Positions 24,062 through 47,431 of a stretch of 56,383 bases of DNA are shown here, one piece after another (position 1 is the stretch's first letter; every line of letters starts with the position of its first letter). A program made the position numbers and the translations under genes. The notes under the pieces are model-generated. The model made no database searches. It saw only the letters and a list, made by a program, of their open reading frames with translations, and was not told the origin of the DNA. This DNA comes from Gilvimarinus gilvus (lineage in GTDB: Bacteria > Pseudomonadota > Gammaproteobacteria > Pseudomonadales > Cellvibrionaceae), in the NCBI RefSeq assembly GCF_030518155.1, contig NZ_JAULRU010000371.1, positions 1 through 56,383 of the forward strand, given 5' to 3'.

Positions 24062-25387
24062 TTAGTTGGATTTTACGTAAAAAGGGAAGTTCGCATTACC
24101 CACTTTGCCCTTCCCGTCGTAGGTGTAGGAGAAAATGCGGTAGTCACCCTCCGCCTCTGGTGCCTGAAAAACCAACACGCCCGGTGCCTCTTCAACCACA
24201 GCTATATCCATCGCATCAGGCTTTTGCTCAAAGGCGCCGCCCTGACTGCGGATCTGAACCTCTTTGAGCAACACCCACTGATACTCCAGAGTGTCGCTAT
24301 CGGGGTCCTTTACGTCCACCTCAACGCGGACTTTTGCCCCCGGAGCCACATAGACGCTGTCTGTGGCCGTCTTTTCGTTCATGCGAATGGCAAACGCCAG
24401 AGGAGCTCGGTTTAGTGGGTATTCACCGGTCCAGAACCTAGACAACTCATCGACCCGGGCATTGGGTTTACCATCGGCGTTAAACATGCCATACCAAGTC
24501 GGTGTACGTTCCTGTTTTTGCCCCCACAAAAAGGCATAAGAACCAATGACTTTGCCCGTAGGATTACCGGCAAAAGCATCGTTCATCCGCTGCGCTAAAG
24601 TGCGTGCTTTGACACCACTAGGTTCTTCAATTTCTCGCCCCCACTCGGTAGTGGGACGCTCCCAATGACCTATGGCACCGTACTCGGTCACCATGTAGGG
24701 TTTGTCGATATTGTGCCCTTCAATAATACGAGGCAACTCGCCAACATCACCGTATAATTGCACTGAAATAAAATCCACGTCAGGCGTGTACTTTAATGCA
24801 GTTTTAATATGCTTTTCCGAGGCTCCGGCAAAAGTATAGGTCACGGGGTGATACGGGTCATTCTGATGTATGTATTCGATCATTGCATTGATTGACTGAT
24901 ACACACGGGGGTTAACGTCTTTCAGTGACCCGTCTTCGTTGAACAACAGGTTGGGCTCATTGGCAACCACCCAGGCTAAAAGATTGGGGTGGTTTTTGTA
25001 CTTATCCACGGTGGCCTTAAAGCGCTCAAACTGCTCCGCGACTGCCACTGTATCGTTGTAGTCAAAACCGTGAAGCTCTTTCTCGGTATCAAACCCCAGC
25101 GCCACCATAACGCCATGCTTTTGCGCTTGCGCCAAAAGGGCATCAGCACTGTGAGCATTCCAGGTGCGAACACTGTTACCGCCAACCGACACCAACAACT
25201 CCATGGTATCAATATTAGAGCCTCCCACCCCTTTGACCGCAAACGGCTCACCGTTCACCAGAAGCTGATAGACCCCGCTGTTTTTGACGATCTCCACCTG
25301 CTTAGGGCCTGCACTTTCGGCAACGACAACAGAGCTAACACAAAATGCGAGTGCCGCCGCAGCGGCCAACTTAGCTGACTTATACAT
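24062..25387 (-). CDS. Secreted glycoside hydrolase with a TIM barrel (GH2/GH5-like)
   Basis: A 441-residue exported protein. A signal peptide (1-23) is followed by a strand-rich entry (NGEPFAVKGVGGSN) and a (beta/alpha)8 barrel of clan GH-A. The acid/base Glu144 is in WVVANEPNL and the nucleophile Glu235 is in YMVTEYGAIGHWE, the usual NEP and EYG arrangement of GH2 C-terminal barrels. YAFLWGQKQERTPTWYGMF forms the late aromatic platform. The last 110 residues form a beta-sandwich (VEVDVKDPDSDTLEYQWVLL). The substrate is probably a beta-glucan or mannan, but no specific family member is recognised. It lies downstream of typA in the same direction, separated by a heptamer-repeat locus, so it likely has its own promoter. 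Confidence 0.8.
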   Translation of the reverse strand: MYKSAKLAAAAALAFCVSSVVVAESAGPKQVEIVKNSGVYQLLVNGEPFAVKGVGGSNIDTMELLVSVGGNSVRTWNAHSADALLAQAQKHGVMVALGFDTEKELHGFDYNDTVAVAEQFERFKATVDKYKNHPNLLAWVVANEPNLLFNEDGSLKDVNPRVYQSINAMIEYIHQNDPYHPVTYTFAGASEKHIKTALKYTPDVDFISVQLYGDVGELPRIIEGHNIDKPYMVTEYGAIGHWERPTTEWGREIEEPSGVKARTLAQRMNDAFAGNPTGKVIGSYAFLWGQKQERTPTWYGMFNADGKPNARVDELSRFWTGEYPLNRAPLAFAIRMNEKTATDSVYVAPGAKVRVEVDVKDPDSDTLEYQWVLLKEVQIRSQGGAFEQKPDAMDIAVVEEAPGVLVFQAPEAEGDYRIFSYTYDGKGKVGNANFPFYVKSN

Positions 25388-25477: not shown

Positions 25478-25510
25478 AAGTCGGAAGTCGGAAGTCGGAA
25501 GTCGGAAGTC
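25478..25510. repeat. 7-bp tandem repeat array (GTCGGAA)
   Basis: A perfect heptamer array of about 4.7 copies (unit aagtcgg/gtcggaa). It lies 90 bases upstream of the glycoside hydrolase start and faces an inverted heptamer block at 25631-25662, forming the left end of a composite element with 120 unrelated bases between. Confidence 0.9.
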
Positions 25511-25630
25511 AATTGTGAGGGTATCAGTAAGATCAACGCAAGTTAGAGGAAACTTACGTGCTTTCCACAACTACAGGCACATGCCCGCCGAAGTTATAAG
25601 GCACTGCGACTTGCAGCCCCTAAGGCATAC

Positions 25631-25662
25631 GCGTCGGACGTCCGGCTTCAGACATCCGACGC
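25631..25662. repeat. 32-bp palindrome-ended heptamer block, copy 1
   Basis: The unit has 8-bp inverted ends (gcgtcgga / tccgacgc) around 16 bases and includes the 13-mer TCAGACATCCGAC at 25648-25660. It ends 7 bases downstream of the typA stop (minus strand). A second copy at 34986-35017 is identical at 27 of 32 positions with the same geometry. It may act as a 3' stem-loop for typA. Confidence 0.85.
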
Positions 25663-25669
25663 ATACACA

Positions 25670-27496
25670 CTACTTATTCTTCGCGCGTTTACGTTCGTTT
25701 TCAGTCAGTAACTTTTTACGCACGCGAATGGACTCAGGTGTTACTTCCACCAGCTCATCGTCTTCGATAAATTCCAGCGCTTGCTCAAGGGTGTGACGAA
25801 TTGGCGGCGACAGGGTTAGGGCATCATCGGTACCCGAAGCGCGTACGTTGGTCAGCTGCTTGGCCTTGGTAGGGTTAACCACCAAATCATTGGCGCGCGA
25901 GTGAATACCAATTACCTGACCTTCATAAACTTCAACACCGTGGCCCAGAAATAAGCGACCACGATCTTGCAGCGGGTGCAGACCATAGGCCAGAGTTTTA
26001 CCCTTAACCATCGACACCAATACACCATTTTGGCGCTTGGCTACTTCACCATCTTTGACCGGGCCATAGTGATCAAACACGCTGGTCATAATGCCCGAGC
26101 CCGAAGTCAACGTCAGGAACTGGCCACGGAAGCCAATCAAACCGCGCGATGGAATGATAAACTCCAGCTTAACGCGACCTTTGCCGTCTGGCTCCATGTT
26201 AGTCATTTCAGCTTTACGCAAACCCAACTCTTCCATGACCGAGCCCTGATGTTGATCTTCAACGTCGATCACCACTTGCTCAAACGGCTCCTGGATTTCG
26301 CCGTCTATTTCGCGTTGAATAACCTCTGGGCGGGACACACCGAGCTCAAAGCCTTCACGACGCATATTTTCAATCAGCACGGACAAGTGCAACTCACCGC
26401 GCCCTGAAACAACAAACTTATCCGGGGTTTCACCCTGGACAACACGCAGTGCCACATTGTGTATAAGCTCTTGGTCCAGCCGATCTTTGATATTACGGCT
26501 GGTCACAAACTTACCCTCTTTACCGGCAAACGGCGAATCGTTCACCTGAAAGGTCATGCTCACGGTAGGCTCATCAACCGTCAGCGGCGGCAGTGCCTCG
26601 ACAGCCTCCGGGCTACACAATGTATCGGAGATATCCAAGCCATCAATACCAGAGATACACACAATGTCACCGGCGGTGGCGTTATCAGTCTCGACGCGCT
26701 CCAGACCGTGATAACCCATCACCTGCAATACTTTAGCTTTTTTAGTGCCGCCTTCACGCTTCGCCACGACCACTTGCTGATTGGGTGACAAACTACCGCG
26801 AGAAATTCGGCCAATACCAATAACACCGGTATAGCTGTTGTAATCCAGAGCCGACACCTGCATCTGGAAATCGCCTTCGATGTCTACATCTGGCGCTTTT
26901 ACGTGCTTGGTAATCATTTCAAACAGCGGCGTCATGTCTTCGGCCAGCTCATCGGCCTCAGGACCGGCCACGCCGTTAAGCGCAGAGGCATAAATAATCG
27001 GGAAATCGAGCTGCTCGTCGGTAGCGCCCAGACGGTCAAACAAATCAAACACTTGATCCACAACCCAGTCGGGACGAGCACCTGGACGGTCAACCTTGTT
27101 GATCACCACGATCGGGTTCAAACCTTTTTCAAACGCCTTACTGGTCACAAAACGGGTTTGCGGCATCGGGCCATCAACCGCGTCAACCAACAGCAGCACA
27201 GAGTCAACCATCGACAAAACACGCTCCACTTCACCGCCGAAGTCGGCGTGCCCCGGAGTATCCACGATATTAATACGGTAGTCATTCCAACGGATGGCAG
27301 TGTTTTTAGCCAGAATGGTAATGCCGCGTTCACGCTCCTGATCATTCGAGTCCATGATGCGCTCGGCGCCCTCGTCACGTCGATCAAGTGTGCCGGACTG
27401 CGACAGCAGCTTGTCTACCAGGGTCGTTTTACCGTGGTCAACGTGGGCGATAATGGCAATATTTCGCAAATTGGCGATTTTAGATTGGCTGGTCAC
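25670..27496 (-). CDS. typA: Ribosome-associated translational GTPase TypA/BipA
   Basis: A 608-residue EF-G-like GTPase that binds ribosomes under stress or cold and helps large-subunit assembly. Motifs: P-loop [10 protein letters not shown] (17-26), switch region [26 protein letters not shown], then domain II and the TypA-specific C-terminus ending in [17 protein letters not shown]. Length is standard (about 605-610). It starts with GTG at 27496; TGAGA about 9 bases upstream fits, and no other in-frame start matches homologues. Codon use is biased as in highly expressed genes. It is upstream of the glycoside hydrolase and downstream of the thiI pair, all on the minus strand, with a 163-base spacer before it. 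Confidence 0.95.
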
Positions 27497-27659
27497 TGTA
27501 ATGGTCTCAGGTGCGGAGTAAATGGCAGCGCACCCTTAGCAAGGGCGATAGCGCTGAAAAGGCGCGCATTATAACGATCTACGGTTACAACAGGAATGGA
27601 AAAGATCAGTTTTTAGGCACTATCGGAAAAATAATCCAATTTAGCCAGCGCAAAGCCGC

Positions 27660-28127
27660 CTAAAGACCCAAATAATTGGTGGGCTCTTCACCATCGGGAC
27701 CAATTTGGCCCTCAGAGTCACCGGCAAACTCAAATTGCTCTATCTTGCCCGACTCTGCATTAGTGAAGCAGGAGATAAACATTTCCCGGGCCGGTGGAAT
27801 CCGGTCAGAGTCGGCATACAGATCGGCCTCAATAAAGATTTTGAACTGTCCGGTTTTGTCGTCATGACGACTGCTCAACTGATCGACATGCATCACTCGA
27901 ATACGATTTTTAAACGATTTGCGCATACGCTCTTCACAGCTCATGCGCGCATCGGTCATGGTGGAGTGCTTGTAGTTGCCCTCTAAAGCATCTCCCAGCT
28001 TGAGTCCAAACTCGCCAATGGGAACCCCCGTAAAGTACAGCGTCGAACCGATAGAAACGGCGATCAGCCCAACAACGACCACCAATGCGATCAAACCCTG
28101 CACTACCGTAGACTTCTTCTTACGCAT
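27660..28127 (-). CDS. Membrane-anchored hypothetical protein
   Basis: A 155-residue protein with a basic start (MRKKKST) and a single transmembrane helix (about 9-33), then a soluble domain with two cysteines (ARMSCEERMRKSF, MFISCFTNAESG) that could form a disulfide in the periplasm. It begins 6 bases after the thiI stop, so it is very probably co-transcribed with thiI. No domain is recognised. It is acidic towards the C-terminus (GQIGPDGEEPTN). The spacer between it and typA holds no recognisable gene. Confidence 0.65.
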   Translation of the reverse strand: MRKKKSTVVQGLIALVVVVGLIAVSIGSTLYFTGVPIGEFGLKLGDALEGNYKHSTMTDARMSCEERMRKSFKNRIRVMHVDQLSSRHDDKTGQFKIFIEADLYADSDRIPPAREMFISCFTNAESGKIEQFEFAGDSEGQIGPDGEEPTNYLGL

Positions 28128-28133
28128 AAATCG

Positions 28134-29606
28134 TTACTCAGGGCGATAGACGCCAATATTGGTACGACCATCATCCACCAGGTGGGATGCGTGGAGCTGA
28201 CTCATAATGCCTTTTTCACAATACAGATAATAGCGCTTCCCTTCCTCCAGCTGCGCCAGAGACTTGTTCAATGTATAAAATGGGATTTTCAACACCACAG
28301 TATCGGTAAGCAGCAATGGCTTGAGGCACTCTTCGTCCGGGTGGCGAATATCAATTACCACGCCGTCCACAGGTAAACTGGCAACCACAGCCACCGGTTG
28401 ACCCGGCTCGACCGACTCGGCCAGATCCCGCACGTCAACCACAACCTTGTCTTGCACAGCTTTTTCGAGCACAGCAAAATCAAATTTGTCCTCGGCCGCC
28501 ACAACTCTATCGAGCTTAGCCCGGGTTGTGGGCCGCACCGAAATGACACCGCAGTACTCTGGCATGCTGGCGGCAAAGGTTTCTGTGCCAATATTGCGGG
28601 AAATGTCGATGATCTCGCCCTTATCCATGGTAATAAGCGGACGCAACACCAGGGCCTCCGTCACCCGATCTATGACATTCAGATTGGGCAGAGTCTGGCT
28701 CGACACCTGAGCAACGCTTTCTCCGGTCACCAGGGCCGGCAACTTAAGCTCTGCCGCGACCCTGCTGGCAGCGCGCATCATCATACGCTTTAACACCACG
28801 CCCATATAGGCATTGTTGACGTTTTGCAGAATCTCACTGACCACATCCTCAAAGGGCACAGTGATAAATTTCACCGGATGTGAGGCGCCAAATTTATGCC
28901 AGAGGTAGTAGGAGACCTCTTTAACACCCATTTCATGCTGACGGCCACCCAGGTTAAAAAAGCAGAAGTGCGTCCGAATACCGCGTTTCATGGTCAGGTA
29001 AGTCGATACCGTGGAATCAAACCCGCCAGATATCAGTGTTAACACCGACTCCTGCGACCCCAAAGGATAGCCACCCAAGCCCTGATGATGGCTGGATACC
29101 ACAAACAAACGGTCATCTTTAATTTCCAGACGCACCGTCACGTCGGGCTTTTTCAGGGCAACCCCGGCATTTTCAGTATGCTGCGCCAGGCCTCCGCCGA
29201 CATAGCGCTCGACATCGGTCGAGGTGAAATCGTGACGACCACCGCGCTTGGCCCGCACACAAAACGTTTTGTCCTTTAAACGACCCTGCCAGCAGCCCAG
29301 CACATGTTCGAAAATCTGCTGCATATCACCGAGCGGAAACTCAAGCACCCGCAAAAAGCTGCCAATTCCCGGGGTATGGGCAAGAATCTCGGTGACACGC
29401 GCCTCTCGATTAGCCACCTCTTCAGCCGACATGCCATCATTGCTGGCGGTAATTTCTACTTTTTCCCAGTCGCGATCAATGCGAATACCCGGCCCCACCT
29501 CACTAATTAGAGCACGTAAGTTATCCCGCAACTGACGAATAAACCGCTTGCGAACCGGCGGGCTCTTGATAATTATTTCCGGGAAAACCTTGACGATGAA
29601 ATGCAT
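28134..29606 (-). CDS. thiI: tRNA uracil 4-sulfurtransferase ThiI
   Basis: A 490-residue cytosolic enzyme that transfers sulfur to U8 of tRNA (4-thiouridine) and in many bacteria to ThiS for thiamin thiazole synthesis. Order: an N-terminal ferredoxin-like and THUMP region (1-165), then the PP-loop ATPase with LISGGFDSTVS (SGGFDS at 193-198), and a C-terminal rhodanese domain whose persulfide cysteine is Cys463 (YYLYCEKGIMSQ). The partner cysteine in the PP-loop domain is in MPEYCGVIS. The rhodanese extension is the gammaproteobacterial form. The gene is divergent from glnA and followed immediately by a membrane-anchored hypothetical gene. Confidence 0.94.
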   Translation of the reverse strand: MHFIVKVFPEIIIKSPPVRKRFIRQLRDNLRALISEVGPGIRIDRDWEKVEITASNDGMSAEEVANREARVTEILAHTPGIGSFLRVLEFPLGDMQQIFEHVLGCWQGRLKDKTFCVRAKRGGRHDFTSTDVERYVGGGLAQHTENAGVALKKPDVTVRLEIKDDRLFVVSSHHQGLGGYPLGSQESVLTLISGGFDSTVSTYLTMKRGIRTHFCFFNLGGRQHEMGVKEVSYYLWHKFGASHPVKFITVPFEDVVSEILQNVNNAYMGVVLKRMMMRAASRVAAELKLPALVTGESVAQVSSQTLPNLNVIDRVTEALVLRPLITMDKGEIIDISRNIGTETFAASMPEYCGVISVRPTTRAKLDRVVAAEDKFDFAVLEKAVQDKVVVDVRDLAESVEPGQPVAVVASLPVDGVVIDIRHPDEECLKPLLLTDTVVLKIPFYTLNKSLAQLEEGKRYYLYCEKGIMSQLHASHLVDDGRTNIGVYRPE

Positions 29607-29685
29607 GTAAGCCTACTGTTAGCGCGCGGGAAAAACGCGTGATTATAATGCATGGGGAGCGTTTAACGAAACGCCCCACCACCGG

Positions 29686-29702
29686 CGCACAAATATAGTG
29701 CC
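29686..29702. promoter_or_regulatory. NtrC binding site, distal, upstream of glnA
   Basis: The 17-bp sequence contains the symmetric half-sites GCAC and GTGC separated by 7 bases, as in the NtrC consensus TGCACC-N5-GGTGCA. Its centre is about 137 bases before the predicted sigma-54 start and 31 bases from the second site, that is three helical turns. This copies the enteric glnAp2 layout. Confidence 0.8.
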
Positions 29703-29716
29703 CACACAAATACCAA

Positions 29717-29733
29717 TGACCCGTTTTGGTGCA
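29717..29733. promoter_or_regulatory. NtrC binding site, proximal, upstream of glnA
   Basis: The sequence tgacccgttttggtgca has one full half-site (TGGTGCA) and one degenerate one with the correct 7-base spacing. Its centre is about 106 bases upstream of the predicted transcription start. Confidence 0.8.
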
Positions 29734-29804
29734 CAACAGCAAGAAGGGGGCGACTGGCGCCGGCTGCAAGCCTGACAATTCGGCCCCCTTTTATGAATAC
29801 TTTA

Positions 29805-29819
29805 TGGTACAGTTCTTGC
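29805..29819 (+). promoter_or_regulatory. Sigma-54 promoter of glnA
   Basis: TGGTACAGTTCTTGC matches the -24/-12 consensus TGGYAC-N5-TTGC, with exactly 10 bases between the invariant GG and GC. Transcription would start near 29831, about 116 bases before the glnA ATG. Confidence 0.88.
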
Positions 29820-29946
29820 CTTCTTTCGAGGACGACCACAAAGTCGCCCAGCCCCACAGGCGGGGCGCCCGATCAGTAGCAATATTGTTACTGACGATTT
29901 TTCTAAACGTACGTAGCCCACAGGCTTTACAAATTGGAGGCATTCG

Positions 29947-31350
29947 ATGTCCAAAACACTGGAATTGATCAAAGAACACGAAGCGCGCTGGGTAGACATG
30001 CGCTTTACCGACACCCGCGGTAAAGAACAGCACGTAACCATTCCTGCTGCCATCGTAGACGAAGATTTCTTCGAAGAAGGCAAAATGTTTGATGGCTCAT
30101 CCATCAACGGCTGGAAAGGCATTAACGAATCAGACATGATTTTGATGCCAGCGGATGACACCTCAGTCCTCGACCCTTTCGCCGAAGACTCTACCGTTAT
30201 TATTCGCTGTAACATCGTTGAGCCGACCACCATGCAAGGCTACGATCGCGACCCGCGCTCAATCGGCCTGCGCGCGGAAGAATACCTGAAGTCTACCGGC
30301 CTGGGCGACACCGCTCTGTTCGGTCCAGAGCCAGAGTTCTTCGTGTTTGACAGTGTGCACTGGGCCTCAGAAATGGGCGGCGCATTCTACAAAATCAAAT
30401 CCGAAGAAGGCGCTTGGTCTTCAGGCGACGATTTCGAAGACGGTAACGCGGGTCACCGCCCAACCGTTAAGGGCGGCTACTTCCCCGTGCCTCCAGTCGA
30501 TTCACTGAACGACCTGCGTGGCGCAATGTGTAATGCCATGGAAGCCATGGGTCTTGAGATTGAAGTTCATCACCACGAAGTTGCGACAGCCGGTCAGTGT
30601 GAAATCGGTGTTGGCGCCAACACCCTGGTGAAAAAAGCCGACGAAGTGCAAATTCTGAAGTACTGCGTTCACAACGTAGCTCACGCTTACGGCAAAACTG
30701 CTACCTTTATGCCCAAGCCTCTGATTGGCGATAACGGCTCAGGCATGCACGTGCACCAGTCTTTCTCTAAAGACGGCACCAATCAGTTCGCTGGCGATGA
30801 GTACGCTGGTTTGTCTGAAACCGCCCTGTACTACATTGGTGGCATCATTAAGCACGCGCGCTCACTGAACGCGTTCTGTAACGCCTCTACCAACTCGTAC
30901 AAGCGTTTGGTTCCGGGCTTCGAAGCTCCAGTAATGCTGGCCTATTCTGCGCGCAACCGCTCTGCGTCTATTCGCATTCCGTTTGTCACCAGCCCTAAAG
31001 CCAAGCGCGTTGAGACTCGCTTCCCTGACCCAACGGCCAACCCATACTTGTGCTTCGCGGCACTGCTGATGGCTGGTCTAGACGGTGTTCAGAACAAGAT
31101 TCACCCAGGTGAAGCAGCTTCTAAAGACTTGTACGACCTACCTCCAGAAGAAGAAGCACAAATCCCAACCGTGTGCTCTAGCCTGGAACAAGCTCTGCAA
31201 GCTCTGCAAGACGACAACGAGTACCTGCAAGCTGGCGGCGTATTCACTAAAGACTTCATCGATTCATACATCGAACTGAAGCAAGCCGACATTCAGCGCC
31301 TGCAAATGACTCCACACCCAGTAGAATTCGAACTCTACTACAGCGTGTAA
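29947..31350 (+). CDS. glnA: Glutamine synthetase, type I
   Basis: A 467-residue dodecameric enzyme making glutamine from glutamate, ammonia and ATP; it is the main ammonia assimilation step. Signatures: [11 protein letters not shown] near residue 47, the ATP/metal block [11 protein letters not shown], the glycine-rich [18 protein letters not shown], and the adenylylation loop [10 protein letters not shown] with Tyr396 as the site modified by GlnE. It belongs to the beta (GSI-beta) class. GGAGG lies 6 bases before the ATG. It is driven by an NtrC/sigma-54 promoter and followed by the DUF4124, ntrB and ntrC genes, as in Pseudomonas. Codon use is strongly biased, indicating high expression. Confidence 0.97.
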
Positions 31351-31388
31351 GTCACCCGAGCCAAACACGTTCACGTGTAAAAGCTCAC

Positions 31389-31420
31389 AAAAGGCCCGAT
31401 CAGCGATGATCGGGCCTTTT
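31389..31420 (+). terminator. Rho-independent terminator after glnA
   Basis: A perfect 14-bp stem (aaaaggcccgatca / tgatcgggcctttt) with a 4-base loop is followed by more T residues (tcttttag). It starts 38 bases after the stop and should separate glnA from the downstream genes, at least partly. Confidence 0.92.
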
Positions 31421-31479
31421 TCTTTTAGCGGCAAAGCGCTATCTTAGTGAAGCGCCCTTATAGCAATGGAAATATCACT

Positions 31480-32001
31480 ATGGTGAGAACAGTTGTCGCT
31501 ACATTAATTTTTTGCGCCCTTAGCGCTTCGGCCGAGGTCTACAAGTCGGTCGATAAATACGGCAACGTCACTTTTACTGACGACCCCAGCTCCGCGCAAA
31601 AACGCGGCGAGAAAACCGAAAAAGTTAACGTCCCCCCCACCAACATTGTACCGGGCGGCAAAGCCATAGAGCCGATGCGTGAAGAAGACGATGAGCCCGG
31701 TGAAGAACACCCTGATTATCAAATAAAAGTCATTAGCCCCACCGACCAGCATACCCTGACGCCCGGCCAGCGCGACCTGGTGATCGCTGTCACCACAACC
31801 GCCCCACTGCGCCATAACGCTCAGTTTGCCTACTACATGGATGGCACATTGCTCGGTAAAACCGACCTAAACAATTACTCTATTCGCGAGATTACCCGCG
31901 GCGAACACAACCTGCATGTTGAAGTAATAGACCGCAACGATCGCGTGCTCTCCAGCAGCACACCTGTGACCGTTTACGTTCACCGCCCCTCCCTAAACTG
32001 A
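31480..32001 (+). CDS. Secreted DUF4124 protein of the glnA-ntrBC locus
   Basis: A 173-residue exported protein. A signal peptide (about 1-18, ending SASAEV) is followed by the DUF4124 motif VYKSVDKYGNVTFTDDP, a short beta domain of unknown role. An acidic linker comes next, then a C-terminal immunoglobulin-like part (QIKVISPTDQHTL to PVTVYVHRPSLN). ATG 31480 is chosen because GGA lies 9 bases upstream and the signal peptide then starts correctly; a GTG at 31447 would add 11 residues. The gene sits between glnA and ntrB in many Pseudomonas relatives, but no function in nitrogen control is known. Confidence 0.83.
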   Translation: MVRTVVATLIFCALSASAEVYKSVDKYGNVTFTDDPSSAQKRGEKTEKVNVPPTNIVPGGKAIEPMREEDDEPGEEHPDYQIKVISPTDQHTLTPGQRDLVIAVTTTAPLRHNAQFAYYMDGTLLGKTDLNNYSIREITRGEHNLHVEVIDRNDRVLSSSTPVTVYVHRPSLN

Positions 32002-32115
32002 CCGCAAACAAAACGCCCGCCCCAATTTAGAGCAAAAGCCCGAATATTGTGCAAAAATTGAAAAGGGCGAGCCACGTACAGTGTGAAAACGCCCATCTTT
32101 CGCACTTTTTTGCAT

Positions 32116-32130
32116 TGGTTTACTTCTTGC
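32116..32130 (+). promoter_or_regulatory. Candidate second sigma-54 promoter upstream of ntrB
   Basis: The sequence tggtttacttcttgc has GG and GC exactly 10 bases apart and TTGC at the -12 side, but the -24 side keeps only TGGT. It is about 64 bases before the ntrB start. The match is partial, so it may be chance. Confidence 0.3.
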
Positions 32131-32193
32131 ATAGTGCACCTTCATAAATCACCGCCTGCCCTGTGGCTGGCGGTCCAGGAGTACGGAACAATC

Positions 32194-33297
32194 GTGACAC
32201 CCCCAGACCTACACAAACAGCTGCTCGACAGCCTCAGCACCGCCATTATTTTGCTGGATGGGCACCTACAACTTTGCCATATGAACCCGGCAGCTGAGGC
32301 GCTTTTGTCGATCAGTAATGAACGCTGTCTGGGCGAGCCTATCACGCATTTTTTTCATGAGTCCTCAGACACACCAGGTGAGCTGCTACACGCGGCTGAA
32401 AATAGTAACCACTACACCAAGCGGCATGCCGAGTGGCAACTGCTCAACGGCGAACAAATTACTGTGGATTATACGGTCACGCCTTTTAGCCACAACAGTG
32501 GACTGGTGATAGAAATACTGCCCATGGATCGCCTGCTGCGGATCTCCCGGGAAGAAATGCTGAGTTCATCGCAAGAAACCACCCGGGTGTTAATTCGCGG
32601 TATGGCGCATGAAATTAAGAACCCGCTCGGTGGCATTCGCGGTGCGGCACAGTTGCTGGCCCGCGAACTGCCAGGAACCGAACTAAAAGAGTACACAGGC
32701 ATCATTATTGACGAGGCCGACCGCCTGCGTAACCTAGTCGACCGCATGCTTGGCCCCAATCAATTACCGCAGCTAGGCGTCTTGAACATTCACGAGGTGC
32801 TGGAGCGCGTTGCCACTATGATTCGCGCGGAGAGCGATGACAGTATTAATATTATTCGCGACTACGATCCGAGCCTGCCAGATATTTACGGCGATAAAGA
32901 ACAGCTCATTCAGGCCCTGCTCAATATCGCCCGCAACGCCATGCAAGCGATGAATGAAAACCACACACCGAACCCGAGCTTGACCATGCGCTCACGTGTT
33001 CGGCGCCAGTTCACGATTTCCGGCGTACATCACCCCCTGGTCATACATGTCGACGTTATCGACAATGGCCCGGGGATTCCCGAGGATATGGTCAAACAGA
33101 TTTTCTACCCGATGATTTCTGGCCGCGCCGAAGGCACGGGCCTGGGACTGACAATTTCACAGCATTTGGTGCACCAGCACAAAGGGTTAATCGAATGCCA
33201 CAGCGAACCGGGCGAGACTCGCTTTTCGCTGTTCCTCCCTATGGAAACTAATTCCACTCACTCTTCATCTACGAGAAACCGCCATGCAGAAGTCTAA
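32194..33297 (+). CDS. ntrB: Nitrogen regulation sensor kinase NtrB
   Basis: A 367-residue cytosolic histidine kinase/phosphatase that phosphorylates NtrC when nitrogen is limiting and, bound to PII, dephosphorylates it. It has an N-terminal PAS domain (about 5-120), a dimerisation helix with His139 in GMAHEIKNPLGGIRG, and a catalytic domain with NIARNAMQA (N box), VIDNGPGIP (G1) and GTGLGLTI (G2). No transmembrane segment is present, as expected. GTG 32194 is chosen because homologues begin with LHKQLLDSL-type sequence and GGAA is 5 bases upstream; an in-frame ATG 37 codons earlier is unlikely. Its end overlaps ntrC by 14 bases. Confidence 0.94.
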   Translation: MTPPDLHKQLLDSLSTAIILLDGHLQLCHMNPAAEALLSISNERCLGEPITHFFHESSDTPGELLHAAENSNHYTKRHAEWQLLNGEQITVDYTVTPFSHNSGLVIEILPMDRLLRISREEMLSSSQETTRVLIRGMAHEIKNPLGGIRGAAQLLARELPGTELKEYTGIIIDEADRLRNLVDRMLGPNQLPQLGVLNIHEVLERVATMIRAESDDSINIIRDYDPSLPDIYGDKEQLIQALLNIARNAMQAMNENHTPNPSLTMRSRVRRQFTISGVHHPLVIHVDVIDNGPGIPEDMVKQIFYPMISGRAEGTGLGLTISQHLVHQHKGLIECHSEPGETRFSLFLPMETNSTHSSSTRNRHAEV

Positions 33298-34705
33298 TTG
33301 CGTATGGATTATTGACGACGATCGTTCAATCCGCTGGGTGCTGGAAAAGGCCCTGCAAGGTGCCGGAATTGAAACCCGCACTTTCGATTCCGGTGACTCC
33401 GCACTCAATCAACTCAACCGTGAAGTGCCCGATGCGATTGTCAGCGATATTCGCATGCCGGGAATGGACGGCCTGGGGCTGCTCTCTACTATGCACTCCA
33501 ACCATCCGGAGGTGCCTGTCATTATCATGACCGCGCACTCGGACCTCGACAGCGCTGTCGCAGCCTATCAGGGTGGTGCCTTTGAGTATCTGCCCAAACC
33601 GTTCGATGTCGATGAAGCCGTCGCCGTCGTACAGCGCGCGCTCGCCCACGCCGAGGAGCAAAAAAGCGATCGCACCCATGCCGACACCGTGGAAGTTGAC
33701 ACCGAAATTATTGGTGAAGCACCGGCCATGCAAGAAGTCTTTCGCGCTATTGGGCGATTGTCTCAGTCGAACATTACGGTGCTGATTAACGGTGAGTCGG
33801 GTACGGGTAAGGAGCTGGTCGCACGCGCATTGCACCGCCACAGCCCGCGGCGCAGCGAACCATTTATTGCACTTAACATGGCAGCCATCCCCAAAGACTT
33901 AATGGAATCAGAACTATTTGGTCATGAGAAAGGCGCCTTTACCGGAGCGGCGACGCAGCGTCAGGGCCGGTTTGAGCAAGCCAATGGTGGCACCTTGTTT
34001 TTGGACGAAATTGGTGACATGCCCGCTGAGACGCAGACACGGTTGCTGCGTGTACTCGCGGATGGCGAATTCTACCGCGTGGGTGGCCATACCCCGGTAA
34101 AAGTGGATGTGCGCATCATTGCTGCCACCCATCAGGATCTTGAGAACTTGGTTACCGACAATCGCTTTCGCGAAGACTTGTTCCACCGTTTGAATGTGAT
34201 ACGCATACACATTCCAAAGCTGGCCGATCGCCGTGAGGACATTCCCAAGCTGTCTCAGTTTTTTCTGCAAAAGGCGGCTGGCGAGTTAAACGTCGACACC
34301 AAAATATTGCTGAAAGAAACCGAAGAATTTATGTGCAGCCTGTCCTGGCCGGGCAATGTGCGTCAGCTCGAAAACACCTGCCGCTGGATTACCGTTATGG
34401 CTTCGGGGCGTGAAGTGCATATTGAAGACTTACCGCCAGAGCTGATGGACAGTAAAGAAGGCAATGCCCCGGCAGATGACTGGGAGAAAGCCCTGCGCCA
34501 CTGGGCAGACCAGGCGCTGGCGCGCGGCCACCACCAACTGCTCAGTGAAGCGGTACCCACCTTTGAACGCGCGCTGATAGAGACCGCGCTCAAATATACC
34601 GCCGGGCGCAAGCGCGATGCCGCCAACTTACTCGGCTGGGGCCGCAATACCCTGACCCGTAAATTGAAGGAACTGGATATGGCTGGCGGCGACGAGGCCA
34701 GCTAA
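33284..34705 (+). CDS. ntrC: Nitrogen regulation response regulator NtrC
   Basis: A 473-residue sigma-54 activator. The receiver domain (1-120) has the phosphorylated Asp55 in [11 protein letters not shown]. The AAA+ domain has Walker A GESGTGKE (170-177), the sigma-54 contact loop GAFTGA (217-222) and Walker [14 protein letters not shown]. The C-terminal Fis-type helix-turn-helix is [19 protein letters not shown]. It should bind the two sites upstream of glnA. It overlaps ntrB by 14 bases, so the pair is translationally coupled. Its TAA is followed after one base by a 107-bp heptamer array. Confidence 0.96.
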
Positions 34706-34706
34706 A

Positions 34707-34813
34707 TCTGATGTCTGATGTCTGATGTCTGATGTCTGATGTCTGATGTCTGATGTCTGATGTCTGATGTCTGATGTCTGATGTCTGATGTCTGATGTCT
34801 GATGTCTGATGTC
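34707..34813. repeat. 7-bp tandem repeat array (TCTGATG), 15 copies
   Basis: Fifteen perfect copies of tctgatg plus two bases start one base after the ntrC stop codon. Perfect short tandem arrays of this length are prone to slippage, so copy number should vary. A 173-base segment without a gene separates it from the inverted 32-bp block at 34986-35017. Together they fill most of the 362 bases between ntrC and the AGCS gene. Confidence 0.95.
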
Positions 34814-34985
34814 ATCATGAGTGGGTGACGCCTGAACCTGTCAAACCCCTTTTAGGAACGATGCCCCGCATCGCAATGCGGTGTATCGGCCCCAAAATTG
34901 TAAATCTCCGGCGCAGAGCACTAAATCGAATACCACAACCTAGGAGATACTCCAAGGCCTGCGTTATGGGCATGATTGATGTGTA

Positions 34986-35017
34986 GCGTCAGACATCCGA
35001 CCTCAGACATCTGACGC
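34986..35017. repeat. 32-bp palindrome-ended heptamer block, copy 2
   Basis: Ends gcgtcaga / tctgacgc form an 8-bp inverted repeat around 16 bases. The 13-mer TCAGACATCCGAC lies at 34989-35001. It shares 27 of 32 bases and the same geometry with the copy at 25631-25662 and lies about 50 bases upstream of the AGCS transporter start. Confidence 0.85.
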
Positions 35018-35067
35018 ACAACGCCGCAAATGTTACCCTCTGATAACAACAACACTCAGGGGGACAC

Positions 35068-36426
35068 GTGGAAAGTCTATTACAGCAATTTGCTACCTTT
35101 ATGTGGGGCACGCCACTGATCGTATTGCTGGTTGGTGGTGGGTTATTTTTTGTTGTATTCAGTCGCGCCCTACCCTATCGATACCTCGGCCATGGCCTGG
35201 CGATTCTTACCGGCCGTTATGACAACCGCAACGATCAAGGCACCCTGAGTCATTTTCAAGCGCTCAGTACTGCCCTGTCTGGCACTCTGGGACTGGGCAA
35301 TATCGCCGGTGTTGCGCTGGCGATTACCGCAGGCGGACCGGGCGCCATATTTTGGATGTGGGTAACAGCTGTGGTTGGCATTGCCACCAAGTTTTTTACC
35401 GCCACCGCCGCCGTCATGTATCGCGGCAACGACTCCAAAGGTAACCTTCAGGGCGGCCCCATGTACGTTATTCGCGAGGGGCTAGGTAGGGGCTGGCTAT
35501 GGCTGGCCGTGCTGTTCGCCTTTGCCGGCTTGTGCGGGACACAGCCAGTCTTCCAAATAAACCAATTGGTGGCCATGTTACGGACCTCCATTGCTTACCC
35601 GCTCAATTTGGCCAGCGAGGAGTCTCACTTAGTATTCGACGCCGCAGTGGGTACGCTGGCGGCAGTGTGCATATTGATTGTTATCAGCGGCGACTTGAAA
35701 CGTGTCGCTCAAGTAACGGCAAAAGTTGTTCCCACTATGGTGCTCGCCTATTTGGTGATGACCGGCGGCGTCTTGTTAACCAACCTCAGTGCCGTGCCAG
35801 ATGCTTTTGCCCTCATTTTTCAGGATGCGTTTTCGGCCACTGCCGTTGCCGGGGGCACCTTGGGTAGCGTTATTGCCATTGGTGTGAGTCGCGGCGCCTT
35901 TTCCAATGAGGCCGGTATTGGCACTGAGTCTATGGCGCACGGCGCCGCACGGACCAACGAGCCGGTGCGCGAGGGGCTGGTTGCAATGGTTGGCCCTATT
36001 ATTGACACTCTGATTGTCTGCACCTGCACGGCCTTAGCCATCCTGGTAACGGGTGTTTGGCAATCTGATAATGGCGATGGTGTAGTGCTAACCGCGGCTG
36101 CTTTTTCCTCAACCTACGGCAGCCTCGGCCCAAGTTTATTGACCGTTATGGTTATTTTTCTAAGTCTGAGTACTATCCTTACTTTTTGGTACTACGGCAG
36201 CAAGTGTCTGGGCTTTTTAATTGGGGCTCGCTATCAGCACCACTACGTTTGGATCTACTGCCTGCTCATTGTTGTGGGCAGCATTGGTACCGTAGGCGCC
36301 CTGTTTAATTTCTTAATTGGCATGTACGCGGTTATGGCCATCCCGACGATGGTGTCGGCTCTACTGCTGGCCCCCAAAATAATGGTGGCGGCTAGAAATT
36401 ACTTTAGTAGATTGAATGGTGAATGA
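35068..36426 (+). CDS. AGCS-family sodium:alanine/glycine symporter
   Basis: A 452-residue inner-membrane transporter with about 11 hydrophobic helices. Family marks are GTLGLGNIAGVALAITAGGPG near residue 73 and the later SRGAFSNEAGIGTESMAHGAA, both substrate/ion-binding regions of AGCS symporters (DagA, AlsT). It is expected to import alanine, glycine or a related amino acid with sodium. It starts with GTG 35068 directly after a GGGGGA string. Position after ntrBC suggests a nitrogen-related role, but heptamer arrays lie on both sides and no NtrC site is seen upstream. Confidence 0.92.
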   Translation: MESLLQQFATFMWGTPLIVLLVGGGLFFVVFSRALPYRYLGHGLAILTGRYDNRNDQGTLSHFQALSTALSGTLGLGNIAGVALAITAGGPGAIFWMWVTAVVGIATKFFTATAAVMYRGNDSKGNLQGGPMYVIREGLGRGWLWLAVLFAFAGLCGTQPVFQINQLVAMLRTSIAYPLNLASEESHLVFDAAVGTLAAVCILIVISGDLKRVAQVTAKVVPTMVLAYLVMTGGVLLTNLSAVPDAFALIFQDAFSATAVAGGTLGSVIAIGVSRGAFSNEAGIGTESMAHGAARTNEPVREGLVAMVGPIIDTLIVCTCTALAILVTGVWQSDNGDGVVLTAAAFSSTYGSLGPSLLTVMVIFLSLSTILTFWYYGSKCLGFLIGARYQHHYVWIYCLLIVVGSIGTVGALFNFLIGMYAVMAIPTMVSALLLAPKIMVAARNYFSRLNGE

Positions 36427-36427
36427 T

Positions 36428-36465
36428 GGACGGTGTACGGTGGACGGTGGACGGTGGACGGTGGA
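36428..36465. repeat. 7-bp tandem repeat array (GGACGGT)
   Basis: Five copies of ggacggt (one with gtacggt) plus three bases start one base after the stop of the AGCS gene. No inverted partner is seen before the next gene. The unit differs from the other arrays but has the same length and the same position relative to a stop codon. Confidence 0.9.
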
Positions 36466-36545
36466 AAAACAGTTTACGCCGATAAGCAAGATCGGTCAGG
36501 CAAAACATTATTCATTCCTCTAGCATAACCACGCTTGGAGGATAC

Positions 36546-37388
36546 ATGCCATACAGTCAAAATATACTCAATGCCATCACCGCGATTGAATCTAACCCCG
36601 ATGTACGCTTAACTCTGCAACAACTCAGTAAAACTGTGGGCATTTCGCCGTTTCATTTCCACCGCTTGTTTCGCGCGCAAACGGGTATTGCCGTTGGTCA
36701 GTTCTGCGCCATGAGCAAGCTTAAACGAGCAGCTTATCAATTGTTGTTTCGCCCCTGGTTATCCATAACAGACATCGCTCTCGACAACGCCTATCAAAGT
36801 CCGGAAGCCTTTAGCCGGGCATTCACACGCAAATTTGGCTGCCCCCCGAGTGTGTATCGTCAACAGGCATCTCCCGTTATGGCCGCCAACTTACCTACTT
36901 TGCAGGATCAAAGCATGAGCTCACAAGAGATTAAGGTGGTGCAATTCCAGCCTCTGGATATATACGAACTAATCCATCGAGGCCCCGAAAGCCAACTCAC
37001 AAAGACAATTCAACAGTTTATTGGCTGGCGTAAGGCTCGCCACTTATCACCTCAAACCAGTCGAACATTCAATGTTTTTTACAGCGACCCTAACTCTGTC
37101 GCAGCGGACGAATTTGAATTGGGGTTGGCCGTAGAAAAAAAGCGCCCAGTTGATGATATTGCCCCGCTCACAGCGAAGAGACTTCCCACGTGCCGATGCG
37201 CTTATGTACGCCACATCGGCCCTGACTCAAAAATAGACACGAAGCTGCAATTTCTTTACCGAAACTGGCTTCCCGGCAACCAAGAAGAACCGGGCGATTT
37301 CCCTCTGTTTACGGAGCGCATCCGCTTTTTCCCTGAAGTGCCAGAACACGCTATGATTACCGACCTGTATCTACCGCTCAAGGATTAG
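36546..37388 (+). CDS. AraC-family regulator with GyrI-like effector domain
   Basis: A 280-residue regulator. Residues 1-105 hold two AraC helix-turn-helices (LTLQQLSKTVGISPFHFHRL and ITDIALDNAYQSPEAFSRAF, then KFGCPPSVYR). The C-terminal 155 residues form a GyrI-like small-molecule domain (IKVVQFQPLDIYELIHRGP to DLYLPLKD), the layout of SoxS/Rob-like regulators that sense drugs or dyes. It is the first gene of a four-gene operon with a transglutaminase-like protein, DUF2164 and a GNAT acetyltransferase; one base separates it from the next ATG. GGAGG precedes the start. Confidence 0.88.
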   Translation: MPYSQNILNAITAIESNPDVRLTLQQLSKTVGISPFHFHRLFRAQTGIAVGQFCAMSKLKRAAYQLLFRPWLSITDIALDNAYQSPEAFSRAFTRKFGCPPSVYRQQASPVMAANLPTLQDQSMSSQEIKVVQFQPLDIYELIHRGPESQLTKTIQQFIGWRKARHLSPQTSRTFNVFYSDPNSVAADEFELGLAVEKKRPVDDIAPLTAKRLPTCRCAYVRHIGPDSKIDTKLQFLYRNWLPGNQEEPGDFPLFTERIRFFPEVPEHAMITDLYLPLKD

Positions 37389-37389
37389 C

Positions 37390-37998
37390 ATGACCGATTC
37401 GAACTTGGCTCTGTATCTGGCCGTCTCACACTATATAAACTGGGACGACAACAGCGTGCAGAATAAAAGTGCACAGCTTACCGGGCACCTGACCAACGAC
37501 ACAGACAAAGCCGCCGCCTGCTTTCACTTTGTGCGCGATGAAATTGCACACAGCTGGGACTTTCAGCGCAGTCCCACAACCTGCCGCGCCTCTGATGTAT
37601 TAGCCTCCGCAACAGGTTACTGCTACGCCAAAAGCCACCTTTTAGCTGCGTTATTACGGGCGGCCGATATTCCCGCTGGAGTTTGCTATCAGAGGCTTAC
37701 GGTAACTAACGATCAGCCGCCATTTTGCTTACATGGGTTGAATGCGGTATATCTCCGAGATTATGGTTGGTACCGAGTGGACGCTCGCGGCAACAAAAAG
37801 GGGGTAAATGCAGAATTTTCGCCACCCACAGAACGGTTGGCATTTCCAATTGTCAGTAGCGGCGAAGTAGACTTACCTGAAATTTGGGCCGAGCCGCTAC
37901 CCGTAATTACAGAGTGTTTAGAGCGCCATAAAACGTGGCGCAGCGTGGCTGATAATCTGCCTGACATTGCAATCATACCAAGCAACGGAGAAACTTAA
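37390..37998 (+). CDS. Transglutaminase-like cysteine protease-fold protein
   Basis: A 202-residue cytosolic transglut_core domain. The triad is visible: Cys78 in ATGYCYAKSHLLAALLRA, His115 in CLHGLNAVYL, and Asp131 in GWYRVDARGNKKG. In bacteria this fold acts as a peptidase, amidase or peptide-modifying enzyme rather than a classical transglutaminase. There is no signal peptide. The gene lies one base after the AraC stop and its TAA overlaps the next ATG (TAATG), so expression is tightly coupled. Substrate unknown. Confidence 0.85.
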   Translation: MTDSNLALYLAVSHYINWDDNSVQNKSAQLTGHLTNDTDKAAACFHFVRDEIAHSWDFQRSPTTCRASDVLASATGYCYAKSHLLAALLRAADIPAGVCYQRLTVTNDQPPFCLHGLNAVYLRDYGWYRVDARGNKKGVNAEFSPPTERLAFPIVSSGEVDLPEIWAEPLPVITECLERHKTWRSVADNLPDIAIIPSNGET

Positions 37999-38243
37999 TG
38001 AAATTTTCAAACCAAGAGAAGGAATTGATTGTACAAAAAATTCAGGGCTATTTTCGCGATGAGCTCGAGCAGTCCATCGGCAATTTTGATGCGCAATTTT
38101 TACTGGATTTTTTTAGCGAAGAAATCGGGCCGTACTTCTACAATCGCGGACTCTACGATGCCGGCGCGCTACTGCATGAGCGCATGGACAGTATTACGGA
38201 TGCCGTCTACGATCTGGAAAAAAGCACGGAGTTTAAACGGTGA
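37998..38243 (+). CDS. DUF2164 protein
   Basis: An 81-residue, mainly helical acidic protein with the DUF2164 pattern: FSNQEKELIVQKIQGYF, DELEQSIGNFDAQFLLDFF and EEIGPYFYNRGLYDAG. Family members are small conserved proteins of unknown role, often next to transglutaminase-like or acetyltransferase genes. Start ATG 37998 overlaps the stop of the transglutaminase-like gene, and its own stop overlaps the GNAT start by 4 bases. It has no membrane segment and no catalytic signature. Confidence 0.85.
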   Translation: MKFSNQEKELIVQKIQGYFRDELEQSIGNFDAQFLLDFFSEEIGPYFYNRGLYDAGALLHERMDSITDAVYDLEKSTEFKR

Positions 38244-38716
38244 TCGACATCCGACTGGCCGATTACCAAAGCAGCGATGACGGCAAAAATATCATAACGC
38301 TGCTGAATGCCTACGCTGAAGACCCTATGGGCGGAGGGCAGCCACTGCCCCAATACACACGTGAACATTTGGTAGGTAAACTGGCGGAGCACAACGCCAT
38401 AACGTTACTGGCCTTTGTAGACGATCAGGCGGCAGGGATTCTCAATGGTTTCTGGGGATTCTCCAGCTTCGCCTGCCGGCCGCTGATCAACATTCATGAC
38501 CTGGCCGTACTCAAACCGTATCGGGGAATGGGCCTCAGCCGACAGCTAATGCAAGAGCTTGAAATCATTGGCCGCGAGCGAGACTGCTGCAAATTAACCC
38601 TGGAAGTATTAAGTGGCAACACCACAGCCAAAGCCGCCTACCAAACGTTCGGCTTTGCCGGCTACGAATTAGACCCAGGCAAGGGGCAGGCTTTATTTTG
38701 GGAGAAGAAGCTATAG
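38240..38716 (+). CDS. GNAT-family N-acetyltransferase
   Basis: A 158-residue acetyl-CoA-dependent acetyltransferase. The acetyl-CoA loop is VLKPYRGMGLSRQLMQELE near residue 94 (RGMGLS follows the R/QxxGxG/A rule). IHDLAV is the preceding strand, and LEVLSGNTTAKAAYQTFGF is the conserved late helix-strand. The GTG start at 38240 overlaps the DUF2164 stop (GTGA), so it is coupled. The acceptor is unknown; the operon context suggests a small-molecule or peptide modification controlled by the AraC protein. A heptamer inverted-repeat locus follows the stop. Confidence 0.87.
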   Translation: MIDIRLADYQSSDDGKNIITLLNAYAEDPMGGGQPLPQYTREHLVGKLAEHNAITLLAFVDDQAAGILNGFWGFSSFACRPLINIHDLAVLKPYRGMGLSRQLMQELEIIGRERDCCKLTLEVLSGNTTAKAAYQTFGFAGYELDPGKGQALFWEKKL

Positions 38717-38721
38717 CGCTG

Positions 38722-38823
38722 GATGCCTGATGTCTGATGTCGGAAACGAACAATTGATGCTCTAAAGCTCAGCATTAAATGTTCTTTTTTAGCATCCGTC
38801 ATCAGACATCCGACGTCCGACGT
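38722..38823. repeat. Inverted heptamer locus between convergent genes
   Basis: The left block (38722-38744) has three heptamers of gatgcct/gatgtct/gatgtcg type. The right block (38793-38823) has four inverted ones (catccgt, catcaga, catccga, cgtccga) including TCAGACATCCGAC at 38802-38814. The blocks can pair across a 48-base loop. The element sits exactly between the GNAT stop and the FadL stop and may act as a two-way 3' end structure. Confidence 0.8.
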
Positions 38824-38827
38824 TATC

Positions 38828-40162
38828 CTAGAATTTCCAATTAAACTGTGCCGCTAAAATATTCACTGAACTGTCGAAAGAACCCGACAATACAGCGGAA
38901 CTACCGACGGGTGTTACTTCGCTTTCATGCAGCTCGGCATCGTCCACCATGAGGTAAGCGTAACTCACGTCAACCGACATGCTGTTTGATAACGGCCAGT
39001 GAAAGCCTGCAGCCAGCCAGGTGCGATCGGCATCGGGGATACGGGCACTGACAAACTCAGGGTTATCCTGAGGGGTTTCATCCTGAGCGACGCCAAACCG
39101 CCAGTTAAACTGCCCAGGCACTCCTAAAGTAGCCCCCAATGCGTAGCGCGTTGTGTCTCCGTACTGAAGGTTAAGTGCATCAACCGGAGCTCCGTTATCG
39201 GCCTTAACGACGGCCACTGTCTTAATGCTGCTCCAGTCGGTTTGCGAAACATCAAGGTGCATTGCAAATGCGGGGGTAAACCGTTGGCTTAAGCTCAAGG
39301 TAAGAGTATCGGGAAGCTCAACCTCAGCCTCAATGTCCCCGGCAAGTGCGCCGAGCGCACCGGCGCACAGTGTGCCGGTGGTGGGCGCAGGTGGGGCTCC
39401 GGTAGGATAACCTGCTCCCGGAGCACAGGCCGCATTCAAATCAAAACTGGCATCGCCCTGCAGTTTATAGTCGCCGCCCTCACGCCAAAGTAAGCCGATA
39501 CTGGTATTTTCAGAAGGTGTAATAAGTACACTGGCATCCAGAACAAAACCATCGTCATCGCCCTTAATTTTAGCGCTGCTGTCAGTGGCGGTCGCTGGTA
39601 GCACCCCCAAGGTAGAATCCACTTGATTCTCCAAGGTGGCCTCTACGGTTTGATAGTTCAACCCCAAGCCAATGGCAAACTTATCGTTGGGTGCCCAAGA
39701 GGTGGTTACGTTAAAGTTAACAACTTCCAGCTCGCTGTCGGTCGCGGAATATCGCCCCGCCCACTCTTCATCAAAACGACTGGCCAAACCAAACGGGGCG
39801 CTTATACCAACCCCAACGGCCAGCGTTTCCGTTAGGGGTATGGCGGCGTACAAATTGGGGATAAATCCGAACTCTTCGGTAGTACCGTCGCCGCCGCTGA
39901 AGGTTGAGCCGTTGTCATTGAATGTGGCATCGGTGGAAACCACATTGAAACCCACAGCAACACTGGTTGCATTAAGCTTACTCATGCCTGCGGGGTTGAA
40001 AAACACCGTAGTGGCATCGGTAATGTCGGATGCGGTGCCAGCAAAGGCCTTACCCAGCTGGGCAGGGCTCTGTTCAAGCAACTGAAATGACGCGCCGTGG
40101 GCCACACTGCTTGTGGCCACTAAGGCACCTACTATTGACAGTTTTTTCACTTTATTATTCAT
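38828..40162 (-). CDS. FadL-family outer membrane transporter
   Basis: A 444-residue outer-membrane beta-barrel of the FadL/TodX family, which passes long-chain fatty acids or other hydrophobic compounds. A signal peptide (1-23, ends AHGAS) is followed by the plug/hatch signature FQLLEQSPAQLGKAFAGTAS and DATTVFFNPAGMSKL (the NPA motif). Barrel strands end with NILAAQFNWKF, whose terminal Phe is the usual assembly signal. Length is typical. An unusual Pro/Gly-Cys loop lies near residues 245-270 (CAPGAGYPTGAPPAPTTGT). The gene converges on the GNAT gene across the heptamer locus. Confidence 0.92.
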   Translation of the reverse strand: MNNKVKKLSIVGALVATSSVAHGASFQLLEQSPAQLGKAFAGTASDITDATTVFFNPAGMSKLNATSVAVGFNVVSTDATFNDNGSTFSGGDGTTEEFGFIPNLYAAIPLTETLAVGVGISAPFGLASRFDEEWAGRYSATDSELEVVNFNVTTSWAPNDKFAIGLGLNYQTVEATLENQVDSTLGVLPATATDSSAKIKGDDDGFVLDASVLITPSENTSIGLLWREGGDYKLQGDASFDLNAACAPGAGYPTGAPPAPTTGTLCAGALGALAGDIEAEVELPDTLTLSLSQRFTPAFAMHLDVSQTDWSSIKTVAVVKADNGAPVDALNLQYGDTTRYALGATLGVPGQFNWRFGVAQDETPQDNPEFVSARIPDADRTWLAAGFHWPLSNSMSVDVSYAYLMVDDAELHESEVTPVGSSAVLSGSFDSSVNILAAQFNWKF

Positions 40163-47376: not shown

Positions 47377-47431
47377 GGGTTTGACAGAACCTACTTAAGT
47401 GACCGCTAAAGCCGCTATTGTACTGCCAACC

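Follow-up and report, generated by a model that had tools for sequence, protein, structure and literature searches.

What are the short composite repeats that stand at gene ends around ntrC in Gilvimarinus gilvus, and do they belong to a mobile element? The stretch that raises this question, hereafter the window, comprises 56,383 nucleotides of contig NZ_JAULRU010000371.1 (contig C665 of a 4.78-Mb genome, G000), and its NtrC is closest, among named sequences, to that of Marinimicrobium agarilyticum (90% identity). Three composites, A, B, and C, lie in it, each formed by a forward array of the heptamer GTCNGAN, a spacer, and a reverse array. Across the genomes compared here, arrays of this kind are associated with the gene of S23, the 23S ribosomal RNA (rRNA)-intervening sequence protein (PF05635). 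The window composites are probably S23-less members of a family of intervening-sequence-like elements whose ends are heptamer arrays. No function is known for the heptamer repeats, the S23 proteins, or the rRNA intervening sequences, each of which has been described before. If they were one element, S23 would receive a testable role, the repeats used for strain fingerprinting would receive an origin, and an element class without a recognized enzyme would open to experiment.

Anatomy and genomic spread of the composites

At the left end of composite A stands a plus-strand forward array in the GTCGGAA phase (25478-25510; 4.7 copies by Tandem Repeats Finder, TRF). It lies behind the upstream open reading frame (ORF) 24062-25387, on the side of that ORF's 5' end. 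The right end is a minus-strand 32-bp hairpin block (25631-25662), and the minus-strand ORF 25670-27496 has its 3' end 9 bp away. The plus-strand forward array of composite B (34707-34813; 15.3 copies of TCTGATG, that is, GTCTGAT, by TRF) directly follows the stop codon of ntrC (ORF 33284-34705), and its minus-strand 32-bp hairpin block (34986-35017) precedes the sodium:alanine symporter ORF 35068-36426. Composite C has its plus-strand forward array (38722-38745; 38722-38741 by TRF) behind a GNAT-like ORF (38240-38716) and its minus-strand reverse array (38793-38823; 38805-38823 by TRF) behind the minus-strand ORF 38828-40162. A preliminary description of the window, made from the sequence alone, had reported 7-bp tandem arrays with inverted 32-bp ends at gene 3' ends, and TRF recovered the arrays. 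Its account of the right-hand blocks also held: compared in direct orientation, the two have 5 mismatches over 32 positions (27/32 identical), and in each a 16-bp core is enclosed by 8-bp stems (GCGTCGGA/TCCGACGC and GCGTCAGA/TCTGACGC). Such a block is best described as a run of four heptamers in which unit one is complementary to unit four. In two further genomes, G004 and G007, the ntrC 3' end likewise has 32-bp blocks whose outer stems are GCGTCAGA/TCTGACGC. As described earlier, TCAGACATCCGAC is common to all three composites (25648, 34989, and 38802); it occurs 12 times in G000, against 0 for the reversed control. The composites contain no gene, and an Rfam search of the window gave no match. 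Their RNA folding is stronger than that of shuffled sequences (z -6.83, -7.94, and -4.06), and the two 32-bp blocks fold as hairpins with z of -4.46 and -4.69. The GTCNGAN unit has no run of three G, the feature compared being that of G-quadruplex-forming units.

These arrays are far more frequent than chance would predict. The motif GTCNGANGTCNGANGTC occurs 224 times in G000 and once in its reversed control, and 820 kb of this genome hold 29 period-7 segments with a score of at least 12 (including a single low-complexity run rich in A), compared with 0 to 2 segments for each of the other periods from 4 to 15 except 14. In 820 kb, the arrays form 25 clusters distributed over all five sampled contigs, and 3 of the 25 lie in the window; given this genome-wide spread, the local hot spot around ntrC that had been proposed is rejected as unsupported. 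The placement at gene 3' ends is upheld: an ORF stop lies no more than 60 bp from 21/25 clusters and an ORF start equally close to 6/25, and 11/25 lie between convergent ORFs, compared with 125 of 729 ORF pairs that are convergent, all according to gene calls from a greedy ORF script used in place of annotation. When neighboring arrays less than 400 bp apart were compared, 13 pairs were in forward-reverse order, 7 were forward-forward, 2 were reverse-reverse, and none were reverse-forward. This fixed order, the excess restricted to period 7 and its multiples, and the association with S23 make it very improbable that the arrays come from plain simple-sequence slippage, or represent DNA-uptake-like sequences, with no tie to S23, an origin in whose favor count the arrays that reach 15 perfect units and the inverted pairs that the uptake sequences of other bacteria form in terminators.

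The S23 gene within the genus

Outside the window, the cluster at C332:90037-90484 surrounds a small ORF, whose neighbors on either side we take, by recognition, to be metK and ahcY. The ORF belongs to PF05635; in G000, an S23 gene stands between complementary ends at the metK-ahcY junction and not in 23S rRNA. The preliminary description had envisaged an enzyme gene linked to the repeats. A linked gene exists in S23, outside the window, and its product is a four-helix-bundle protein related to the solved structures 2gsc and 2rld; Pfam and NCBIfam gave it no transposase or other enzyme domain. With a median pI of 9.1, S23 proteins are basic. The NCBIfam model DivGenRetAVD matched S23 with an E value of 8.5e-4, far below the family cut-off, and PADLOC gave no match for two S23 proteins. 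The S23 of Xanthomonas has been described as a homopentamer whose function is not known, and the Coxiella intervening sequence as a selfish element with reported excision by RNase III (PMC4990558).

The abundance of arrays follows the state of this gene in 8/8 genomes of the genus. The GTCNGANGTCNGANGTC-type motif has 224, 133, 98, 31, 7, 5, 2, and 0 copies in them, and none in 30 genomes from other genera. The genomes with 224, 133, 98, and 31 copies have an intact S23, in the genome with 7 the gene holds a stop codon, and in those with 5, 2, and 0 it was not found, so that arrays are few where S23 is absent or broken. In the three genomes without S23, the metK-ahcY junction has a spacer that lacks the gene. 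Sites free of the element do exist in relatives, but their spacers are too diverged for a target duplication to be read.

The heptamers show turnover. The S23 at the metK-ahcY locus of G004 is diverged (non-synonymous difference of 0.42 from G000) and has GCNGAAC arrays on its flanks; beyond these, toward metK, stands a GTCNGAN array. G000 and G003 carry GTCNGAN composites at the 3' end of their GNAT-like gene, where G006 and G002 have GGGGTAC arrays. In G011, the reversed pattern CTGNAGNCTGNAGNCTG has 57 matches, and this heptamer differs from the one flanking the S23 of the same genome. Between G000 and G003, the S23 genes have a non-synonymous difference (dN) of 0.05 and a saturated synonymous difference (dS), values that indicate strong purifying selection.

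Heptamer arrays around S23 genes in other bacteria

S23 was found in 7/38 relatives and in 77/369 gammaproteobacteria. We examined 76 S23 loci from 62 genomes: 7 came from the search of 38 relatives, and the survey of 369 genomes supplied 29 plus a further selection of 40; short and contig-edge matches were mostly excluded, and a script check found the reading frame intact in 72/76. A period-7 array (score of at least 10 on either side) accompanies 53/76 of these loci, against 0 to 2 of the 76 for each of the other periods from 4 to 15 apart from 14, 3 of 3,040 shuffled flanks, and 0/48 ntrC flanks (48 of 80 loci, chosen for full flanks) used as a control.

The heptamer varies between genomes, and even between S23 copies within one genome. 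Still, the two sides of one S23 gene match as inverted repeats, with a similarity of 0.83 versus 0.52 after permutation (maximum of 2,000 permutations, 0.60), in the 32/76 loci that score at least 9 on both sides. Within these loci, the gene's own downstream array was the best match among all downstream arrays in 25/32, and the inverted match was better than the direct one in 30/32. S23 similarity and heptamer similarity are correlated (Mantel r 0.23, p 0.001), a value that includes host relatedness. Additionally, among 18 plasmid records bearing S23, which include near-copies, 16 are cyanobacterial (Nostoc, Calothrix, Anabaena, and others), and arrays with a score of at least 12 lie upstream in 12/18 and downstream in 9/18.

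Some loci hold S23 in 23S rRNA or in a decayed state. In G027 and in Azospirillum, the S23 gene lies inside 23S rRNA, with degenerate heptamers at its ends. In G404, a frame-broken S23 stands between GGGAATC arrays, between the genes of a biotin carrier and a biotin carboxylase, and in G246 an S23 remnant below the Pfam cut-off stands between GGGACTC arrays. These two composites with decayed S23 look like steps from a full element toward a gene-less composite.

The arrays could instead be host RNA elements of gene 3' ends, that is, termination or mRNA-protection hairpins on which S23 acts as an RNA-binding regulator, with nothing mobile and with arrays that arise and drift in place. Their position next to stop codons, the strong RNA folding given above for the three composites, and the purifying selection on S23 agree with such a role, as does the published finding that a relative shares the positions of 83% of the Xanthomonas campestris repeats (PMC4692102). 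We nevertheless consider it unlikely, given that S23 lies inside its own array pair at many types of site, including 23S rRNA, that the distribution in the genus is patchy, that the same site holds different heptamers in different species, and that S23 copies of one genome have different heptamers.

Several further observations concern where S23 is found. In many unrelated genomes, it lies between what appear, by recognition, to be rpsI and a tRNA gene (loci L206, L212, L215, L319, L322, L324, L325, L327, L330, L334, and L336), either a recurrent site or an old inheritance. On cyanobacterial plasmids, it occurs inside CRISPR operons (L296, L306, and L307), between cas6 and cas4 in Pseudanabaena and Anabaena 90 and between cas10 and a Cmr3-family gene in Picosynechococcus. 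The S23 flanks of a Gemmatirosa plasmid (L308) look like period 8 instead of 7, and a 1.5-Mb genome (G362) has eleven weak PF05635 matches, mostly of equal score.

Co-occurrence of arrays and S23 across gammaproteobacteria

Random sampling of 400 kb per group yielded no array with a score of at least 12 either in seven genomes with S23 or in eight without it; since arrays were absent from both groups, this test did not show dispersal, whereas the same scan of G000 gave the 29 segments in 820 kb mentioned above. It was replaced by whole-genome counts of two patterns of four heptamers each in the same 369 gammaproteobacteria, the count tables being transferred by hand into the tests. With all columns considered, including those of the reversed patterns, which were added because they also catch heptamers, at least 10 matches were found in 27/77 genomes with S23 and in 6/292 without it (p 2.7e-15, kinship ignored). 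With the forward and reverse columns only, the numbers were 21/77 and 6/292 (p 4.9e-11, kinship likewise ignored), and 20/76 S23 genomes when the window's genome was left out. A third pattern, the Xanthomonas-type GGGANTN, had matches in 9/77 genomes with S23 and in 2/292 without it (p 1.9e-5). In these comparisons, 6 of the 77 S23 genomes rest on S23 matches below the Pfam cut-off.

A number of results weigh against the reading of the composites as S23-less elements. In 50/77 genomes with S23, fewer than 10 matches were found with all columns, and the random 400-kb samples of seven such genomes were free of high-scoring arrays. Conversely, six S23-free genomes have at least 10 matches, two of them (G354 and G209) with many; a permissive search of nine genomes, including all six, detected no S23 over the cut-off, and G354 and G209, rich in heptamer arrays, have no S23 at E values up to 10. 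The co-occurrence statistics ignore phylogeny. Both sides score below 9 in 19/76 S23 loci, although several of these, including that of G000, look like degenerate heptamers by eye. Furthermore, G000 also carries heptamer families that are absent from its S23 flanks, neither a transposition junction nor a target duplication came to light, and the domain searches gave S23 no enzyme domain.

The array-rich, S23-free genomes G354 and G209 and the many S23 genomes with few arrays are what would be expected if S23 were a passenger, and a third factor (replication slippage, repair defects, or another mobile system) favored both S23 elements and arrays. This explanation seems doubtful to us, as S23 is enclosed by arrays that agree with one another but not with those of other loci, the gene is conserved in the genus, array counts in the genus follow it, and reverse transcriptase (PF00078) was not found in 8/16 genomes searched. 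The last result, with intact S23 in five of the eight (G004, G011, G159, G162, and G299), led us to reject reverse transcriptase as a driver.

A proposed element and its relation to known repeats

Taken together, the heptamer repeats and S23 suggest one overlooked kind of mobile DNA. The full element would consist of a forward heptamer array, a small S23 gene, and the same heptamers inverted, so that its RNA could fold into a long stem with the S23 gene in the loop. It would persist where such a hairpin harms little, namely after stop codons, within operons between genes, between convergent genes, and in 23S rRNA. Most likely, S23 recognizes its own heptamer stem, as RNA or as extruded DNA, promotes the copying of this stem to other gene ends, and promotes array growth with host enzymes through slippage and template switching. 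Gene-less copies would then remain as dispersed composites. The binding of heptamers by S23, any act of movement, and template switching by host enzymes as the route to new gene ends are the parts of this scheme that we infer. The earlier suggestion that the composites are remnants of a mobile element accordingly stands in part: the link to an intervening-sequence gene supports it, and movement belongs to the conjectural side.

Cyanobacterial short tandemly repeated repetitive (STRR) sequences are likewise period-7 direct repeats, intergenic and patchy in distribution. The GGGNATC repeats of Xanthomonas and Nostoc have period 7 and lie in intergenic regions, at most 50 bp from stop codons and on the sense strand, and X. 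campestris has 70 inverted convergent heptamer pairs, with four units preferred (PMC4692102). Publication of these pairs means that the architecture is not new in gammaproteobacteria, where the preliminary description had taken the repeats as a candidate new family. The Xanthomonas type shares with the G000 arrays the inverted convergent period-7 pairs and the placement at stop codons, but its heptamer is GGGNATC instead of GTCNGAN; one form of it, GGGAATC, also flanks the S23 of G404. PMC4692102 has no mention of S23 ("four helix," "XCC0516," and "intervening sequence" do not occur in it).

In Beggiatoaceae, TAACTGA repeats are also period-7, direct, intergenic, and patchy, and MacGregor in 2015 raised the possibility that a protein binding the repeats is itself the mobile element (PMC4679880); unlike the composites, they lie mostly upstream of start codons and include a single inverted pair. 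The 23S rRNA intervening sequence similarly has an S23 gene between complementary, stem-forming ends (PMC4990558), whereas in the genus the element has heptamer arrays for ends and stands between protein-coding genes, and the window composites are gene-less. Avd of diversity-generating retroelements is a distant relative of S23 (homology stated in PMC10053308), but the five genomes with intact S23 named above are devoid of PF00078, and no variable target was seen. Miniature inverted-repeat transposable elements also are short, gene-less, and inverted at their ends, with a rarer gene-bearing form beside them; here, in contrast, the ends are tandem heptamers, and the gene-bearing form encodes S23 instead of a protein with a transposase domain.

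The tie between S23 and the heptamers is consequently the new part, the array architecture itself being already known. A search of open-licence papers, judged from their listings, found none that ties S23 to heptamer repeats. We tentatively extend the proposal, as a possibility that falls short of probable, to the STRR sequences, the GGGNATC repeats, and the families of G000, which might all belong to a single widespread class of mobile element, as its ends and as its copies without the gene. A non-enzymatic four-helix-bundle protein, S23, would drive this class; each S23 lineage would read its own seven-letter word, and rRNA intervening sequences would be the same element in 23S genes.

Other repeats in the window and genome

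An array of another heptamer family, TGGACGG (36427-36465, plus strand, 5.6 copies by TRF), directly follows the stop codon of the symporter ORF 35068-36426. No inverted partner was seen for it, and its RNA folding compared with shuffles is weak (z -2.08). A longer non-coding repeat of a few hundred base pairs also recurs in G000, its ends marked by heptamer arrays that lie on or close to them, at loci L012, L029, L030, L040, and L042 and on contig C184 of this genome at 46890-47387, 104865-105173, and 275489-275810.

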